From: an uncultured beta proteobacterium
GTDB lineage: Bacteria > Pseudomonadota > Gammaproteobacteria > Burkholderiales > Burkholderiaceae_C
Reading direction: 5' to 3'
NCBI GenBank assembly: GCA_903870955.1
Contig: CAIQEX010000200.1
Coordinates: forward strand, 1-7,047
Length of the DNA stretch: 7,047 bases
The notes beneath the pieces were generated by a model that was given only the letters and a program-made list of their open reading frames with translations, was not told the DNA's origin and did no database searches. The translations under genes were made by a program, and so were the position numbers. Shown here piece by piece: positions 1-6,880 of the stretch (position 1 is the first letter of the stretch; every line of letters begins with the position of its first letter).

Positions 1-948
1 GTACGACTCGAGAGATTTCGGCAGAAAAGCCGTATCCAGGCCGGATCGCTGATTACTACGGTGTTTGGTGATGCCATTTTGCCCCGCGGCGGACGCGTGT
101 CGTTGGGCAGCATGATCCAGCTGCTGGAGCCCTTGGGTGTCAAAGAGCGTCTGGTGCGTACCGCCGTTTACCGTCTGGTCAAGGAGGAGTGGCTGCAGTC
201 CGAGGCCATGGGGCGCAAGACGGATTACATGCTCACACCTTCAGGACGCAGTCGGTTCGATGAGGCCTCCCGGCAAATTTATGCGGCCGACATTCCCGGT
301 TGGGACCGCCGCTGGCGACTGATCCTGATTCTTGGCGACATGGATCTTCCCCTGCGCGAGCCGTTGCGCCGGGCCCTGTTCTGGCATGGATTTGGCGAAA
401 CTTCGACGGGCAGCTTCGTCCACCCCACCGCCGATATGGAAAGGGTCATGGAAAGCCTGGCCTCGGAAGGGCTGCAAGCCGTGCTCCCGCATTTGATGCC
501 CATGGTGGCCGTCAATTCCCGCGCGGCGAACTGCGCAACAGACATTGACATGGTGCAAAAAGCCTGGGATCTGAGCAACCTGGCTTTGTCCTATGAGGGC
601 TTTCTGCAAAAGTACGAACCCATTCGCGAGGCCCTGCTGGCTGAAGGGCAGGAAGATGTATCGGAAGAAGATGCCTTCCTGGTGCGCACTTTGCTGATTC
701 ATGATGTACGCAGACTGTTGCTGCGCGATCCGCAGTTGCCGGAAAGCCTGTTGCCCGCCACCTGGCCAGGAAACCGCGCGCGCCTGCTGTGCCGGGATTT
801 GTATCGCAAACTATTGGCGCTGTCAGAGCGCCATCTGGACGCCAATGTGCGGCTTTCCAGTGGCATAGTGCCGAATGCCTCGCGTGCGCTGGACAACCGT
901 TTTAAATTTGGCATGGACCTGGAAGTGGATAACCTGCGTTCTGCCTGA
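1..948 (+). CDS. paaX: PaaX-family phenylacetyl-CoA-responsive transcriptional repressor, 5'-partial
   Basis: Probable repressor of phenylacetate degradation genes; family members bind operator DNA and are released by phenylacetyl-CoA. The frame is open from base 1 (315 codons, stop TGA 946-948). The first codons (RIQAGSLITTVFGD, codons 11-24) already match the conserved start of the PaaX N-terminal winged-helix domain, so the true start lies just upstream of the window. A GTG at 61 would remove that conserved part. The DNA-binding region spans about codons 32-80 (LVRTAVYRLVKEEWL at 51-65). The C-terminal PaaX signature is clear: LLIHDVRRLLLRDPQLPESL (codons 231-250), then LPATWPGNRARLLC (251-264). 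The length is close to E. coli PaaX (about 316 residues). The gene is followed after 11 bases by an IclR-family gene and probably cotranscribed with it. The ligand is inferred from the family and from paaG/paaH downstream. Confidence 0.9.
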   Translation, partial: VRLERFRQKSRIQAGSLITTVFGDAILPRGGRVSLGSMIQLLEPLGVKERLVRTAVYRLVKEEWLQSEAMGRKTDYMLTPSGRSRFDEASRQIYAADIPGWDRRWRLILILGDMDLPLREPLRRALFWHGFGETSTGSFVHPTADMERVMESLASEGLQAVLPHLMPMVAVNSRAANCATDIDMVQKAWDLSNLALSYEGFLQKYEPIREALLAEGQEDVSEEDAFLVRTLLIHDVRRLLLRDPQLPESLLPATWPGNRARLLCRDLYRKLLALSERHLDANVRLSSGIVPNASRALDNRFKFGMDLEVDNLRSA

Positions 949-959
949 AAGGGGAGTCA

Positions 960-1739
960 ATGGATGATGAAGTGAAGACCAGCCACGGCGTGCAGTCGCT
1001 GGAGATCGGCATTGCCGTGCTGAAAGTACTGGTGGAGTCCGGCTCAGCCATGATGCTCAAGGAAATTGCCGCCGCGGCGGACATGCCGGCGTCCAAGGCA
1101 CACCGCTACCTGGTGAGCCTGGTGCGCTCCGGGCTGGTGCAGCAGGACAGCGAGAACTCAAAATACGACCTCGGGCCTTTGGCTATTCCATTGGGCCTGG
1201 CCGCAGTCGACCGGCTGGACCGCGTCAAGTTGGGTCTCAACAGCATTTCTGCGTTGCGTGATCTGACCAATGAAACCACCGCCTTGTCGGTGTGGGGGGA
1301 GTTTGGTCCGGTGATGGTGCGCTGGGAGCGGCCACACCGTCCCATTACCGTCAATGTGGTGACCGGCAACACGGTGAGTCTGTTGGCTACCTCGACCGGA
1401 CGCCTGTTTGCGGCCTGGATGCCGGCAGAAATTGTCCGGCCCTTGCTGGAGCGGGAGTTGTCACTGGGCCGCTCTGCGGAATTCAAAACGCTGGAGCAGG
1501 TGGAGCGCGTGTTACAGGACGTGCGTGCCAATGGCTACTCCTTCGTGCGGGACAGCGACTATTCCAGCCGCGTTCTGGGTCTGGCGGCCCCCGTATTCAA
1601 CTTCAAGAACCATATTTCCATGGCGGTCTCGATTGTGGGTGTCGAAGGCATTTCCGATTTGGGGCCGCAGAGTCTGGCCTTGACAGAGCTCAAGCGTGCA
1701 ACCGGTGCATTGTCCAAACGCTTGGGATCTACACGTTAA
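960..1739 (+). CDS. IclR-family transcriptional regulator
   Basis: A complete 259-residue regulator of normal IclR length. The ATG at 960 is preceded by a strong ribosome binding site (GGGGAG at 951-956), which settles the start. Residues about 11-75 form the N-terminal winged helix-turn-helix (MLKEIAAAADMPASKAHRYL at 32-51, then LVSLVRSGLVQQ). Residues about 85-255 form the C-terminal effector-binding domain, with typical pieces such as LLATSTGRLFAAWMP (141-155), a variable region, and SSRVLGLAAPVFNF (202-215). IclR proteins often control aromatic-acid catabolism or uptake as activators or repressors. The gene sits 11 bases after paaX and is followed by a terminator, so both are likely one transcript. 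A natural target is the promoter at 1979-2007, but the effector and the direction of control cannot be read from sequence. The family is certain; the specific role is inference. Confidence 0.9.
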   Translation: MDDEVKTSHGVQSLEIGIAVLKVLVESGSAMMLKEIAAAADMPASKAHRYLVSLVRSGLVQQDSENSKYDLGPLAIPLGLAAVDRLDRVKLGLNSISALRDLTNETTALSVWGEFGPVMVRWERPHRPITVNVVTGNTVSLLATSTGRLFAAWMPAEIVRPLLERELSLGRSAEFKTLEQVERVLQDVRANGYSFVRDSDYSSRVLGLAAPVFNFKNHISMAVSIVGVEGISDLGPQSLALTELKRATGALSKRLGSTR

Positions 1740-2105: not shown

Positions 2106-2130
2106 CCATGGCCATCGGGTGAGCGCCTGA
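2074..2130 (+). CDS. Possible 18-codon His-rich leader ORF translationally coupled to livH
   Basis: A GTG at 2074 follows an excellent ribosome binding site (GAGGAG, 2062-2067, 6-base gap) and opens a short frame, VHHGRKTFECRHGHRVSA, with the stop TGA at 2128-2130. The stop overlaps the livH ATG in a TGATG junction, the classic layout for translational coupling. Four of 18 residues are His and one is Cys. It may be a leader peptide, the shortened remnant of a former first gene of the operon, or a fortuitous ORF whose ribosome binding site only loads ribosomes for livH. No family is recognised and no attenuator-like terminator is visible. Confidence 0.35.
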   Translation: MHHGRKTFECRHGHRVSA

Positions 2131-3005
2131 TGCTGGCCGAGTTCCTGCAGTTCCTGTTCTCGGGCATCACGGTCGGCTCGACCTATGCGTTGGCCGCGCT
2201 GGGCTTCACGCTGATCTACAACTCCAGCCATGTGATCAACTTCGCGCAGGGCGAATTCATCATGCTCGGTGGCATGCTGGCCGTGTACTTCACGAACTCC
2301 GGTCTGGGCCTGCCGCTGTCCCTGGTTCTGGCCATCGTGTTGCCAGCCGTGGTCGGCCTGGTGATGGAAAAAGTGGCCATCGAACCGGTCAAGGGCGCCG
2401 AGCCGGTCACGCTGATCATCATCACCATCGGCGCCTCGCTGGTGCTGCGCGGTCTGGTGCAAATCTGGCTCGGCAAGGGCACCTTCAGCCTGCCGGCTTT
2501 CTCTGGCGATCAACCCATCAACGTGCTGGGTGCCACCCTGATGCCACAAAGCCTGTGGGTGCTGGGCGTCACAGCGGTGGTGGTCTGTTGCCTGTGGTAC
2601 TTCTTTGCCCGCACCCTGATGGGCAAGGCCATGCTGGCCACCTCCTACAACCGCGTGGCCGCCGAACTGGTGGGCATCAACACCGACGGCGTGCTGTTTT
2701 TGAGCTTTGCCATGTCGGCCGCGCTGGGCGCTTTGGGCGGAATTCTGGTTACGCCCATTACGCTGACCTCGTATGACGCCGGCATCATGCTCGGGCTCAA
2801 GGGTTTTGTCGGTGCCGTACTGGGCGGCTTGGGCAATGGCCTGGGTGCGGTGGTGGGCGGTCTGCTGGTCGGCGTACTGGAGGCCATGGGCGCCGGCTAC
2901 ATCTCGTCGTCGTACAAGGACGCCATGCCCTTCGTTCTGATCCTGCTGATTTTGTTTTTCCGGCCCAGCGGCCTCTTCGGTGGCAAAGCCACAGACCGGG
3001 TCTAG
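2130..3005 (+). CDS. livH: Branched-chain amino acid/aromatic acid ABC transporter permease LivH
   Basis: One of two inner-membrane permeases of a Liv (HAAT) type importer. It has 291 residues, nearly all hydrophobic helices, starting MLAEFLQFLFSGITVGSTYA like other LivH proteins. Family landmarks are INFAQGEFIMLGG (residues 36-48) and a cytoplasmic coupling loop, GKAMLATSYNRVAAELVGIN (165-184), that contacts the ATPase subunits. The C-terminus ends with the usual FFRPSGLFGG (276-285). ATG 2130 is preferred: it agrees with family N-termini, has GGGTGAG 6 bases upstream, and overlaps the stop of the small upstream ORF. An in-frame ATG at 2100 would add ten non-conserved residues. The livM gene follows after 2 bases. 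The substrate is not readable from the permease; paaG/paaH in the same run of genes suggest phenylacetate or a related aromatic acid. Confidence 0.92.
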   Translation: MLAEFLQFLFSGITVGSTYALAALGFTLIYNSSHVINFAQGEFIMLGGMLAVYFTNSGLGLPLSLVLAIVLPAVVGLVMEKVAIEPVKGAEPVTLIIITIGASLVLRGLVQIWLGKGTFSLPAFSGDQPINVLGATLMPQSLWVLGVTAVVVCCLWYFFARTLMGKAMLATSYNRVAAELVGINTDGVLFLSFAMSAALGALGGILVTPITLTSYDAGIMLGLKGFVGAVLGGLGNGLGAVVGGLLVGVLEAMGAGYISSSYKDAMPFVLILLILFFRPSGLFGGKATDRV

Positions 3006-3007
3006 CC

Positions 3008-3940
3008 ATGAACCAGCATCCTTACCGTGGTCTGTACCTGATCGCCGCCGTGCTGCTGTTGCTGCCGCTGGTGTTGCCCAACAGTTTCTACGTGGACCTT
3101 GCCATCCGCATGGCCATCAACGCCGTGATTGTGCTGGGGCTGAACTTGCTGATCGGCTTTGCCGGGCAGATCAGCCTGGGGCACGCCGGCTTCATCGGCA
3201 TTGGCGCCTATGCGTCCGCAGCCTTGCCCACGCATTTCGGCTGGCACCCGCTGCTGGCGGTAGTCGCTGGTGCGGTGGCAGCTGGTGCGCTGGCCGCCGT
3301 GCTGGCGCGGCCGATCTTCCGCCTCAAGGGCCATTACCTGGCCATGGCGACCTTGGGCCTGGGCATCATCATCAATATCGTGGTGCGCAACGAAGCCGCC
3401 TGGACCGGTGGCCCGGACGGTATGGCCGTGCCGCCGATGGCCTTTGGCAGTTTTGAAATCTCCGGTGACAAACCCTGGTACGGCATCGTCGCCAGCCTGC
3501 TGTGCTTCAGCATCTGGGCCTCCATCAACATCATTGATTCACCATTTGGACGCGCTCTGCGCGCCCTGCATGGCTCTGAAGTGGCCTCCAAGGTGGTGGG
3601 CGTGCACGTGGTGCGCTACAAGGTCAGCGTGTTTGTCATGTCGGCCATGTTTGCCAGCATCATGGGCAGCGTTACGGCGCTGTATGTGGGCTTCGTGACG
3701 CCCAATCTGGCGGACTTTTTCCACTCCATCGAACTGGTCACCATGGTCGTGATCGGCGGCATGGGTTCCATCTATGGCTCGGTGCTGGGTGCTGTGCTGC
3801 TCACCGCCCTGCCGCAGGCTCTGGCCACGTTTGAGGGTTGGGAGACGGTGGTGTTTGGTGCCATCCTGATGCTCTGCATGATCTTCCTGCCCAAGGGCCT
3901 GGTGCCCACGCTGGCCGCCCGTTTCGGCAAGGGGGAATGA
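3008..3940 (+). CDS. livM: Branched-chain amino acid/aromatic acid ABC transporter permease LivM
   Basis: The second inner-membrane permease, 310 residues, partner of LivH. It has multiple transmembrane helices (the first at about residues 8-24), the LivM hallmark GFAGQISLGHAGFIGIGAYA (50-69), the motif FRLKGHYLAMATLG (104-117), TGGPDGM (133-139) and a coupling loop GRALRALHGSEVASKVVGVH (181-200). The C-terminal part (IGGMGSIYGSVLGA, 249-262; MIFLPKGLVP, 291-300) is also typical. Length and order are normal for the family. It begins 2 bases after the livH stop with only a weak ribosome binding site, which suggests coupled translation, and ends 2 bases before the preferred livG start. Substrate assignment rests on gene context only. 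Confidence 0.92.
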   Translation: MNQHPYRGLYLIAAVLLLLPLVLPNSFYVDLAIRMAINAVIVLGLNLLIGFAGQISLGHAGFIGIGAYASAALPTHFGWHPLLAVVAGAVAAGALAAVLARPIFRLKGHYLAMATLGLGIIINIVVRNEAAWTGGPDGMAVPPMAFGSFEISGDKPWYGIVASLLCFSIWASINIIDSPFGRALRALHGSEVASKVVGVHVVRYKVSVFVMSAMFASIMGSVTALYVGFVTPNLADFFHSIELVTMVVIGGMGSIYGSVLGAVLLTALPQALATFEGWETVVFGAILMLCMIFLPKGLVPTLAARFGKGE

Positions 3941-3942
3941 AC

Positions 3943-4704
3943 ATGGCTTTGCTTGAAGTTCAAGACCTCTCGATCCAGTTTGGCGGCGTCAAGGCGGTGC
4001 AAAACGTGTCGTTCAGCATCGACGCAGGCATCGTCTATGCCGTCATTGGCCCCAATGGCGCCGGCAAGACCACGCTGTTCAACCTGATCACCGGTATCTA
4101 CACGCCCACCTCCGGCAACATCCTGCTCGACGGTCAACCGATACAGGGCAAATCGCCCGATGTACTGGCCCAGCGCGGTGTGGCCCGGACTTTTCAGAAC
4201 CTGCAAATCTGCATGAACATGAGTGCGGTGGAGAACGTGATGGTCGGCGCCCATCTGCGGCTGGACCGCAATCTGTTCAAGGCCGCTTTGCGTTGGCCGG
4301 CCCTCAAGGCGCGTGACCGCGACCTGCATGTCGAAGCCCAGGAACTGATGCGTTTTGTCGGTCTGGAGGCCTACGCAACGGCGCGCGCCGACAGCATGTC
4401 TTATGGCGCCCTGAAGCGTCTGGAAATTGCACGCGCCCTGGCCATGAAACCGCGCCTGCTGTTTCTGGACGAACCGGCTGCGGGCCTCAACCCGAAGGAA
4501 ACCATCGAGGTGGATGCACTTATCCGCAAAGTGGCGGATAGCGGCGTGACCGTGGTGCTGGTAGAGCACGACATGAAGATGGTGATGAACCTGTCTGACC
4601 GCATTCTGGTGCTGGACTACGGACGCAAACTGGCCGAAGGCACGGCCGCTGAGGTGCGGCGCAACCCCGATGTGATTGCCGCTTATCTGGGCGCTCACGC
4701 CTGA
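3943..4704 (+). CDS. livG: ABC transporter ATP-binding protein LivG
   Basis: A cytoplasmic ATPase of the importer, 253 residues, full length for LivG. Walker A is GPNGAGKTT (36-44), the Q-loop region is RTFQNLQ, Walker B is LLFLDEP with Asp176 and Glu177, and the H-loop is LVEHDMK with His209. AAGLNPKE after Walker B is typical of LivG. The ABC signature reads MSYGALKR (152-159) where most LivG proteins have a form like LSYGQQRR; Ser153 and Gly155 are kept but the usual Gln is replaced by Leu157. ATG 3943 is chosen because GGGGG at 3931-3935 lies 7 bases upstream. An in-frame ATG at 3937 overlaps the livM stop but leaves no room for ribosome spacing. Its partner ATPase is the fused LivF downstream. 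Confidence 0.92.
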   Translation: MALLEVQDLSIQFGGVKAVQNVSFSIDAGIVYAVIGPNGAGKTTLFNLITGIYTPTSGNILLDGQPIQGKSPDVLAQRGVARTFQNLQICMNMSAVENVMVGAHLRLDRNLFKAALRWPALKARDRDLHVEAQELMRFVGLEAYATARADSMSYGALKRLEIARALAMKPRLLFLDEPAAGLNPKETIEVDALIRKVADSGVTVVLVEHDMKMVMNLSDRILVLDYGRKLAEGTAAEVRRNPDVIAAYLGAHA

Positions 4705-4718
4705 CAGGACCCGACCCC

Positions 4719-6035
4719 ATGGACGCACTCACCATCATCAGCCAGGAGCACAGCAATATGTGGCGCCTGGCTACCACCCTGGACCAGGTGGCCTCTGACA
4801 TGCAAGCCGGTGCACCGCTTGAGCATGCCTTTTTTGACGCCGCGCTGGACTACATCACCCAGTTTGTCGACCGCATGCACCACCCCAAGGAGGACGATTA
4901 CCTGTTCCGCCTGCTGCGCCTTCGCAGCACTGAAGCGGCCGACGTGCTGGATGCCCTGGAAGCCGACCATGCCCAAGGCCCGGAGAACCTGGCGCAATTG
5001 CGCGCCAAACTGGCCGCTGCGGCGCAGGGAAGTCTGCCTGGCGCTGATCTGGCAAGCGCCATCAAGCAGTACACGGATGGCCTTAAACGCCACATCAAGA
5101 CCGAAGAAAAGCATGTGCTGCCGCTGGCGCGCAAGGTACTGCAGCCGCAGGACTGGGCCGAGATTGACCAGGCCTTTCGCACCCACAGCGACCCGGTGTT
5201 TGGCGACCAGGCCAAGGCGGAGTTTCGTGAACTGTTTCACCGCATCGTCAGTCTGGCGCCCGACTCGGTGGGTCTGGGTGGCAGCACGGTGGGCAGCTTG
5301 CAAGCTACGGCTACACCGTCACAGCAACCGGTGCTGCTGAAGGTGCAGGGGCTGGAGAGTTGCTACGGCCGTATCAAGGCGCTCAAGGGCATCACCCTGG
5401 AAGTGCGGCGCGGCGAAACCGTGGCCCTGGTGGGTGCCAATGGCGCCGGCAAGACGACCTTTTTGCGCGCCGTGTCGGGTGTGCAGTCCATCAGCGCCGG
5501 TAGCATTCATTTTGATGGCGAAGACATCAGCAAACTGCGCTCCGACAAGCGCATGCGGCGCGGCATCTGCCAAAGCCCGGAAGGTCGGCAAGTGTTCGGA
5601 CCGCTGTCGATTGAAGACAACCTGCGTCTGGGTGCCTACACCCAGCCCAAGCACCAGGTGGCCGGCGACATGGAAAAGATCTTCACCATGTTCCCCATCC
5701 TGAAAGAAAAACGCGCCCTGCCAGCCGGCACCTTGTCGGGCGGGCAACAACAAATGCTGGCCATTGGTCGGGCACTCATGGGGCGCCCCAGCCTGTTGCT
5801 GCTTGACGAGCCGTCGATGGGGCTGGCACCGTTGCTGGTGGAAGAAGTTTTCAACGTCATCAAGACACTCAAGTCCCAGGGCATGACGATTCTGCTGGTG
5901 GAACAAAACGCCTTTGCGGCCCTGGCCATTGCCGACCGTGGCTATGTTCTGGAAACCGGCACGGTGACGCTGACCGGCACCGGAGAAGACCTGATTCACA
6001 ACGAGCAAGTGCGCGCTGCCTACCTGGGTATGTGA
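4719..6035 (+). CDS. livF: Hemerythrin (HHE) domain-LivF ABC ATPase fusion protein
   Basis: A single open frame of 438 codons joins two complete domains. Residues 1 to about 180 form a hemerythrin-like four-helix di-iron domain. Candidate metal ligands are all present: His11 (ISQEH), His54/His55 and Glu58 (MHHPKED), His84 (EADH), His125 and Glu129 (HIKTEEKHVLP). Residues about 181-204 are a Ser/Thr/Gly/Gln-rich linker. Residues 205-438 form a full LivF ATPase with Walker A GANGAGKTT (239-247), CQSPEGRQVF, signature LSGGQ (339-343), Walker B LLLLDEP with Asp363 and Glu364, and LLVEQN. Normal LivF proteins are about 235 residues and lack the front domain. The start ATG has AGGA 9 bases upstream and lies 14 bases after livG. 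It is the only LivF in the window, so it probably serves this importer. Sensing of oxygen, NO or redox by the front domain is a hypothesis. Confidence 0.9.
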   Translation: MDALTIISQEHSNMWRLATTLDQVASDMQAGAPLEHAFFDAALDYITQFVDRMHHPKEDDYLFRLLRLRSTEAADVLDALEADHAQGPENLAQLRAKLAAAAQGSLPGADLASAIKQYTDGLKRHIKTEEKHVLPLARKVLQPQDWAEIDQAFRTHSDPVFGDQAKAEFRELFHRIVSLAPDSVGLGGSTVGSLQATATPSQQPVLLKVQGLESCYGRIKALKGITLEVRRGETVALVGANGAGKTTFLRAVSGVQSISAGSIHFDGEDISKLRSDKRMRRGICQSPEGRQVFGPLSIEDNLRLGAYTQPKHQVAGDMEKIFTMFPILKEKRALPAGTLSGGQQQMLAIGRALMGRPSLLLLDEPSMGLAPLLVEEVFNVIKTLKSQGMTILLVEQNAFAALAIADRGYVLETGTVTLTGTGEDLIHNEQVRAAYLGM

Positions 6036-6088: not shown

Positions 6089-6880
6089 ATGGACTACCAA
6101 AATATCCGCTTTGAAGTCGCCGCTGGCGTGGCCCGACTGACCTTGAATCGCCCGGACAAGCTCAACAGTTTTACCGGCGCCATGCATGTCGAATTGCGCG
6201 ATGCACTCGACAGCATCCAAGCTGACAAAAGCATGCGCGTGCTGGTGATTACCGGCGCAGGGCGTGCCTTCTGTGCCGGCCAGGATCTGGCCGACCCGGA
6301 CATGGTCATGGGTGACACGGCGCCCGATATCGGCAACGTGGTGGAGCAGAACTACAAGCCGCTGATCCTGCGTTTGCAAAACCTGCGCGTACCCACGGTG
6401 GCCATGGTCAACGGCGTGGCGGCCGGTGCGGGTGCCAGCCTGGCCCTGGCATGTGATCTGGTGATTGCCGGCAAGTCGGCTTCGTTTTTGCAGGCCTTCA
6501 GCAAGATCGGTCTGATTCCCGATACCGGCGGCACCTGGTTTCTGCCACAGCGTGTGGGCATGGCCCGCGCCATGGGCCTTGCGATGCTGGCCGACAAACT
6601 GCCAGCGGAAAAAGCGGCCGAGTGGGGTCTGATCTGGCAAGTGGTGGACGATGCTGAACTCGGCGCCACGGTCGACAAACTGGCTACCCAATTGGCCGGC
6701 ATGCCCACCAAGGCATTGGTGCGCACGCGCCAGGCCCTGCACGCCGCACCTACGCACACGCTGGAGCAGCAACTCTCCATGGAAGGTGGCTTTATGCGCG
6801 AACTGGGTTGGAGCCCGGACTTCGCCGAGGGCGTCGCCGCCTTCATGGAAAAACGCGCGCCCCGCTTCACCGGTAACTGA
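6089..6880 (+). CDS. paaG: 2-(1,2-epoxy-1,2-dihydrophenyl)acetyl-CoA isomerase PaaG
   Basis: A crotonase-fold enzyme of 263 residues, acting in the cytoplasm in the aerobic phenylacetyl-CoA pathway. It isomerises the ring epoxide made by PaaABCDE to the seven-membered oxepin-CoA, and family members also shift double bonds later in the pathway. Evidence includes TLNRPDKLNSF (18-28), the oxyanion-hole segment GAGRAFCAGQDL (56-67), NGVAAGAGASLAL (108-120), and FSKIGLIPDTGGTWFLP (137-153), whose Asp145 is the likely catalytic acid. The match to E. coli PaaG as recalled is close over the whole length, including EWGLIWQVVDD and the C-terminal KRAPRFTGN. ATG 6089 (MDYQNIRFEV) fits the family start; a GTG at 6032 would add 19 unrelated residues. 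The gene follows livF after 53 bases, has no clear ribosome binding site, and is 4 bases from paaH. Confidence 0.92.
   Translation: MDYQNIRFEVAAGVARLTLNRPDKLNSFTGAMHVELRDALDSIQADKSMRVLVITGAGRAFCAGQDLADPDMVMGDTAPDIGNVVEQNYKPLILRLQNLRVPTVAMVNGVAAGAGASLALACDLVIAGKSASFLQAFSKIGLIPDTGGTWFLPQRVGMARAMGLAMLADKLPAEKAAEWGLIWQVVDDAELGATVDKLATQLAGMPTKALVRTRQALHAAPTHTLEQQLSMEGGFMRELGWSPDFAEGVAAFMEKRAPRFTGN

Follow-up and report, generated by a model that had tools for sequence, protein, structure and literature searches.

Organization of the locus

The stretch of DNA analyzed here ("the window") is a 7047-nucleotide contig (CAIQEX010000200.1; C200 of draft genome G000, 4.39 Mb and 87% complete) from an uncultured beta proteobacterium, and it carries a gene that joins a hemerythrin-family (HHE) domain, in frame, with the LivF-type ATPase of an importer predicted to take up phenylacetate. 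All genes of the window lie on the + strand in the order paaX, an iclR-family regulator, livH, livM, livG, the 438-codon fusion gene and paaG, after which a further gene begins (Table 1). PaaX and PaaG both score over their model cut-offs, which marks the locus as a phenylacetate (paa) operon, with phenylacetate the predicted substrate, and agrees with the context given to the importer in an earlier reading of this DNA (the original prediction). This arrangement recurs: of 109 fused loci, 106 have LivG on the same strand no more than 200 nt upstream (the exceptions being L031, L209 and L213), and a paa marker is present inside the fetched stretch in 83 of the 109, several of the remaining 26 being short contigs. 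These 109 loci count some genomes twice and hold 98 distinct LivF sequences.

Table 1. Features of the window, numbered from its first nucleotide
Feature	Coordinates	Strand	Basis
PaaX-type repressor of phenylacetate pathway, 5' end cut by contig	1..948	+	TIGR02277 265.5 bits (cut-off 264.55); PaaX Pfam domains
IclR-family regulator	960..1739	+	Pfam HTH_IclR and IclR_C
LivH-type permease	2130..3005	+	Pfam BPD_transp_2 131.8 bits; top NCBIfam LivH, under equivalog cut-off
LivM-type permease	3008..3940	+	Pfam BPD_transp_2 145.9 bits; top NCBIfam LivM, under cut-off
LivG-type ATPase	3943..4704	+	ABC_tran and BCA_ABC_TP_C; top NCBIfam LivG, under cut-off
AGGA, ribosome-binding-like word ahead of fusion gene	4706..4709	+	Sequence reading; spacer 9 nt
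HHE-LivF fusion gene, 438 codons and stop	4719..6035	+	ATG start, 14 nt past livG stop
HHE (hemerythrin-family) domain, residues 1-180	4719..5258	+	PF01814 at residues 4-137; AlphaFold2
His11, predicted iron ligand	4749..4751	+	Kept in 110/110 fused and 41/41 other HHE; fits YtfE H84 by spacing only
His54, predicted iron ligand	4878..4880	+	Aligns with YtfE His129
Glu58, predicted bridging ligand	4890..4892	+	Aligns with YtfE Glu133
His84, predicted iron ligand	4968..4970	+	Aligns with YtfE His160
His125, predicted iron ligand	5091..5093	+	Aligns with YtfE His204
Glu129, predicted bridging ligand	5103..5105	+	Aligns with YtfE Glu208
Linker, residues 181-204	5259..5330	+	Predicted disordered; pLDDT <50 at 180-200
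LivF-type ATPase domain, residues 206-438	5334..6032	+	NF008626 aligned at 205-437; PDB fold 1ji0
Walker A GANGAGKTT, residues 239-247	5433..5459	+	Identical in 86/88; GSNGAGKTT in 2
ABC signature LSGGQQ, residues 339-344	5733..5750	+	Identical in 86/88; two rows incomplete there
Walker B LLLLDE, residues 359-364	5793..5810	+	Sequence reading and alignment of 88 loci
PaaG, epoxyphenylacetyl-CoA isomerase	6089..6880	+	TIGR02280 371.5 bits (cut-off 345.15)

A hemerythrin-family domain and LivF in one open frame

In the 438-residue product of the fusion gene, a linker predicted to be disordered connects an HHE domain to a complete LivF-type ATPase. The Pfam Hemerythrin (HHE) model PF01814 matches with 66.3 bits (cut-off 25.3), placing the N-terminal part in that family, and ABC_tran matches residues 222-366 with 104.3 bits (cut-off 25); both domains are present in the best 120 of 7997 matched homologues. 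HHE and LivF occur together in 88 of the 90 loci with an HHE match, a set that includes some genomes twice and holds 85 distinct fused sequences, and each of these 88 reads as a single open frame; the remaining two (L059 and L100) end at a contig edge. A sequencing error or frameshift near the junction, named as an objection in the original prediction, is thus not borne out, and the open frames together with the invariance of six predicted metal ligands (see below) confirm that the fusion is no artefact. A restart of translation at GTG 5331 to give two proteins, also considered there, appears unsupported, as no Shine-Dalgarno-like word precedes this codon. An in-frame ATG, GTG or TTG was found somewhere in residues 185-215 in 81/88 loci, with a 4-base Shine-Dalgarno-like word in 30/88, and since such starts hold no fixed position a conserved internal start at the HHE/LivF junction is not supported by these alignments. 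Ratios of nonsynonymous to synonymous substitution (dN/dS) against nine relatives were 0.10-0.31 for the HHE part, indicative of purifying selection, and 0.014-0.07 for LivF, so that constraint on HHE is the weaker. The arrangement matches the description of bacterial hemerythrin-domain sensors as fused to an N- or C-terminal functional domain.

The HHE part was predicted by AlphaFold2 to form four long and two shorter C-terminal helices (residues 2-29, 36-69, 71-102, 108-140, 143-154 and 163-179), with a mean predicted local distance difference test (pLDDT) score of 88.2 and a predicted template modelling (pTM) score of 0.84 when modelled alone. For the whole protein the mean pLDDT was 81.5 and the pTM 0.59, residues 156-168 and 180-200 falling below 50. 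Six predicted ligands (H11, H54, E58, H84, H125 and E129) are invariant in all 110 fused proteins and kept in 40 of 41 other HHE domains, as expected if the di-iron site proposed earlier is intact; of the His54/His55 pair offered there as alternatives, His54 is the invariant residue and His55 occurs in only 101/110. The resulting pattern, H-HxxxE-H-HxxxE, is the four-His/two-Glu type of YtfE and FBXL5. It is not the O2-carrier motif H-HxxxE-HxxxH-HxxxxD, as the fifth His position reads Pro in 103/110 and the last ligand is spaced HxxxE, and the term hemerythrin does not apply here in its O2-carrier sense. Neither does the domain have the Cys pair of YtfE/RIC proteins: Pfam gave no ScdA_N match in the fusion protein (P0001) and residues 1-200 contain no Cys. 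Eight positions are kept in fused but not in other HHE proteins and point to a specialised role; W15, R16, D44, P88 and R95, which are among them, are candidates for contact with LivF. Linker length varies: across the 88 loci, the positions of residues 187 and 205 are separated by 13-19 residues.

The ABC motifs and the livHMG operon are those of a LivF-type ATPase of HAAT importers, although the score against the LivF equivalog model NF008626 (263.6 bits) lies below its cut-off of 441. The best PDB fold for this part was 1ji0 (54% identity), and a fold search with the whole model returned only ABC proteins among the best 50 matches.

Distribution, gain and loss of the fusion

Of 399 genomes drawn from the same order, 15 matched with an E value of 1e-90 or lower, and in 10 of these the protein is fused; this LivF was found in 31 of 249 genomes of the family of G363 (24 fused) and in 10 of 321 genomes across the class (4 fused). 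Merged without overlaps, these samples comprise 33 genomes in which this LivF is fused and 17 in which it is not. Among the carriers are Rhodoferax, Polaromonas, Dechloromonas, Azonexus, Zoogloea, Malikia, Castellaniella, Glaciimonas and Candidatus Accumulibacter, and an N-terminal HHE-LivF fusion is present also in the alphaproteobacterium Azospirillum lipoferum. Trees of both domains were built after removal of fused LivF rows more than 95% identical (98 reduced to 64). In the LivF tree, whose outgroup rows are long-branched and do not form one group so that its root is unsure, unfused rows fall beside fused ones in three places: L032 is the sister of L027 (100/98), L202 and L204 join L111 (98/98), and L216 joins L209 and L213 (100/89), the unfused rows being named first in each case. 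LivG and LivF are adjacent in the three unfused cases, with gaps of 34, 117 and 52 nt, which suggests three or more losses of the HHE domain by clean removal with LivF kept. In the HHE tree one branch parts the 64 fused from 35 other HHE domains (Shimodaira-Hasegawa approximate likelihood ratio test 89; not starred), and the fused/unfused state needs one change on this tree and six on the LivF tree. A single gain of the N-terminal fusion followed by losses is likely on these trees, if not proven. In relatives with apparent HHE loss the operon still contains an intact LivF, which thus persists without HHE, and HHE is therefore probably modulatory.

The fused importer in aerobic and anaerobic phenylacetate operons

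Scores over the model cut-off were obtained for PaaA, PaaX, PaaG, PadG, PadH, PadI, LigK, 3-hydroxyanthranilate dioxygenase, acetaldehyde dehydrogenase, hydroxyoxovalerate aldolase and 2-keto-4-pentenoate hydratase. PadB, PadD and AurF-like are our own labels for what we take these proteins to be; the only Pfam matches of PadB are to molybdopterin models, and its neighbours include a DmsC-like anchor and a PaaK homologue. PaaA was over cut-off in 11/33 fused genomes, and an AurF-like protein sharing 81-97% identity with the one in L088 was found in 15/33, such that 13 have the AurF-like protein without PaaA, nine PaaA without the AurF-like protein, two both and nine neither. A whole-genome search identified a PadB-type anaerobic molybdoenzyme in 7/33, in five of them (G478, G506, G568, G592 and G629) on the fusion's own contig, and at L210 (G506) PadG, PadH and PadI are encoded just upstream of PaaK and the fused importer. 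An importer coupled to PaaABCDE only would be accompanied by PaaA in every fused genome, and the proposal that uptake is matched to this O2-dependent step consequently fails as a general rule. In G000 itself PaaA is present on another contig, so that the aerobic route applies, and no match to PadB was obtained at E 1e-100 in this 87% complete assembly. By these gene contents the fusion serves a predicted phenylacetate-type importer in both aerobic and anaerobic operons, and import when O2 is present is not its universal logic.

An apparent avoidance of anaerobic operons by the fusion was considered and rejected. PadB/PadD occurred in 0/109 fused as against 7/17 unfused stretches, a zero count that arose because the stretches were too short and that was overturned by the whole-genome PadB matches and by PadG, PadH and PadI at L210. 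At genome level PadB was present in 7/33 fused and 10/17 unfused genomes (Fisher p 0.012), a comparison from which kinship was not removed and which is not used as evidence.

Several further features of these loci were observed. In paa clusters an AurF-like protein with two ExxH motifs (E115xxH118 and E216xxH219) is encoded with a BenC-like ferredoxin-NAD reductase (L088:5081-6106 and 6246-7292; also L023-L025, L071-L075, L079-L081, L086-L089, L101-L104 and others). The pair is possibly a two-gene replacement of the PaaABCDE epoxidase; a sequence search at E 1 gave no solved structural relative of the AurF-like protein. A metallo-hydrolase (SoxH-related/beta-lactamase fold) and/or a flavin monooxygenase lies near the fused importer in 30/109 loci (L043:11339-12301 and 12351-14021; also L044-L046, L049, L052, L053, L057, L062, L063, L066 and L105), and a phenol/toluene-hydroxylase-type operon, with two Phenol_Hydrox proteins, a reductase and an HpaA-type regulator, follows it in some Azonexus/Dechloromonas relatives (L096:12068-17894, L058 and L193). 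In the window, the 390-base intergenic stretch ahead of livH (1740-2129) is likely a promoter/operator region. A livK homologue, missing from the window, adjoins paaA on another contig of G000 (C618, L120), so that either the importer operon is divided between two places or these two contigs are neighbours in the genome.

HHE domains beside other Liv-type importers

Among 54 listed HHE matches outside paa loci the surroundings were read for 33, made up of 20 fetched loci, nine short loci and four of five stretches chosen for long open frames, the fifth being an enlarged version of one of the nine. An HHE gene touches a Liv-type importer in six of the 33 (L228, L241, L244, L270, L271 and L272). 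In L228, L241 and L272 it is a separate gene beside the Liv genes, whilst L244:95-1462 (-) and L270:9241-10647 (-) encode C-terminal LivF-HHE fusions of the opposite order (456 and 469 residues, respectively). In L271:9213-10706 (+) the HHE domain, in which one ligand position reads Leu in the alignment, is fused in frame to a BphD-like hydrolase (BphD model below cut-off) that adjoins livF. Genes for aromatic catabolism are present in four of these six loci: a class III extradiol (protocatechuate-type) dioxygenase over cut-off in L228 (protocatechuate 4,5-dioxygenase model below cut-off), LigK in L244, 3-hydroxyanthranilate dioxygenase in L270, and meta-cleavage acetaldehyde dehydrogenase, hydroxyoxovalerate aldolase and hydratase in L271. 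A protein annotated as hemerythrin domain-containing likewise follows LivF in Azospirillum oryzae, where the cluster also encodes 3-hydroxybenzoate 6-monooxygenase and maleylacetoacetate isomerase. From these gene orders, the HHE domain is attached to predicted aromatic-acid importers in several ways: before LivF, after LivF, on a hydrolase beside LivF and as a separate gene.

Other HHE genes had a universal stress protein (Usp) gene within 0.9 kb in 13/33 loci and the low-oxygen genes FixH/CcoG within 0.6 kb in 6/33, the latter consistent with the redox or O2 link originally suggested for the domain. Standalone HHE genes were seen between a Usp gene and fixH/ccoG in L229-L232, L237 and L238, and protein P0165 is a Usp fused to HHE.

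A possible redox sensor on the importer ATPase

The reading we favour, at a rough probability of 0.4, is that the HHE domain acts as a redox/O2 sensor which modulates the predicted phenylacetate importer after translation. We infer iron binding, the nature of the signal, a contact with LivF and an influence on transport. The domain would hold two irons; their diferrous or diferric state, as determined by O2 or cellular redox, would constitute the signal, as opposed to O2 carriage, and contact with LivF would raise or lower the ATPase activity of the importer. Transport would then change at once with the O2/redox state of the cell and not only via gene expression, and the effect may not have the same sign in aerobic paa operons as in anaerobic pad operons. 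A modulator is suggested because this tethered, probably di-iron domain can precede LivF, follow it or be encoded by a separate gene next to it, seems dispensable for the motor and occurs repeatedly beside aromatic-acid import. Redox or O2 is favoured as the signal because other HHE genes have low-oxygen and stress genes as neighbours and because redox-dependent activity has been measured in two N-terminal hemerythrin sensors, as described in PMC9388753. Several results weigh against this reading. The linker is predicted to be disordered and is variable in length, and with the pTM of 0.59 and no predicted docking a rigid allosteric path is not indicated. HHE is absent from four relatives in aerobic contexts (L032, L033, L202 and L204), and NarG, as a marker of nitrate respiration, showed no association with the fusion, being over cut-off in 9/33 fused and 3/17 unfused genomes, Nap not having been searched. 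Occurrence of the fusion in both O2-dependent and anaerobic operons also counts against it as far as O2 supply to one enzyme is concerned, and points to a redox signal instead whilst leaving iron sensing live.

An iron-availability sensor as in FBXL5, throttling aromatic-acid uptake when there is too little iron to supply the iron-rich catabolic enzymes, would suit the four-His/two-Glu pattern and the presence of the fusion in anaerobic operons; set against the neighbours that favour redox, it is considered unlikely. Local di-iron chemistry at the importer, involving O2, peroxide, nitrite/NO or iron donation for repair and leaving ATP hydrolysis unaffected, is likewise judged improbable. Five of six ligands align with those of YtfE, a flexible tether and either domain order suit mere co-localisation, and several carrier genera are known for denitrification, but the ScdA_N domain and any cysteine in the HHE part are missing, NarG showed no association with the fusion, Nap lying outside the search, and there is no evident reason to tie such reactions to aromatic-acid importers. 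Were HHE instead a module for docking or scaffolding, with a structural metal, by which catabolic enzymes (a CoA ligase, for instance) are brought to the importer, then the flexible linker, the residues conserved only in fused proteins and the HHE domain on a meta-cleavage-type hydrolase beside LivF (L271) would be accounted for; a fully conserved six-residue metal site exceeds the need of a scaffold, however, and no partner was identified, making this quite unlikely. A passenger domain without function might evolve faster than LivF and be lost at least three times, as HHE apparently does, but it is hardly credible given purifying selection, 88/88 open frames, invariant ligands and repeated association.

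Returning to the redox/O2 sensor, control of catabolism by redox or O2 is normally read at transcription. If the proposal is true, a di-iron module in the importer ATPase would stop or start uptake at once on a change in O2, before costly or reactive intermediates build up. Still more tentatively, Proteobacterial aromatic-acid ABC importers may be a class that has repeatedly gained a di-iron redox module switching import at the ATPase, and recurrent attachment in any order to several Liv-type importers makes such a general rule testable.

Comparison with known systems

Among the papers listed by literature searches of open-licence PMC, none described an HHE-ABC importer fusion. What is new here is HHE joined to predicted aromatic-acid importers in several arrangements; hemerythrin-fused transporters and sensors are already known as a kind. 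LivF of branched-chain amino acid (HAAT) importers likewise has ABC_tran, all motifs and the livHMG order, and the fusion differs in its additional N-terminal HHE domain, a score for NF008626 below cut-off and a paa locus. Unfused HHE proteins some 190 residues long, such as P0154 of Aromatoleum petrolei and P0158 of Azoarcus sp. CIB, share 41-42% identity over the entire domain and tail and have the same ligands; we know of no function for them. The hemerythrin domain of FBXL5 (3v5z), a eukaryotic ubiquitin-ligase subunit, shows 15% identity in the fold alignment. In the di-iron domain of YtfE (RIC; 5fnn, 7bha; PMC9052748), a protein for which iron donation for repair has been proposed, five of the six ligands have aligned counterparts and the remaining one agrees in spacing.

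The hemerythrin sensor with cyclic di-GMP output likewise has an N-terminal hemerythrin-family domain on a C-terminal nucleotide-acting domain, but with a canonical ligand motif and measured redox-dependent activity (PMC9388753), whereas the motif of HHE-LivF is non-canonical. Also similar are the P1B-5-type ATPases of Acidothermus cellulolyticus and Sinorhizobium meliloti, transport ATPases which likewise have a cytoplasmic hemerythrin-like domain with a non-canonical motif (PMC9388753). These are single-chain P-type metal transporters with the domain at the C-terminus, whereas the fusion described here is the motor subunit of a predicted aromatic-acid ABC importer with an N-terminal HHE domain of the pattern H-HxxxE-H-HxxxE. 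HHE-LivF may also help to clarify the role of the hemerythrin-like domain on P1B-5 transport ATPases.
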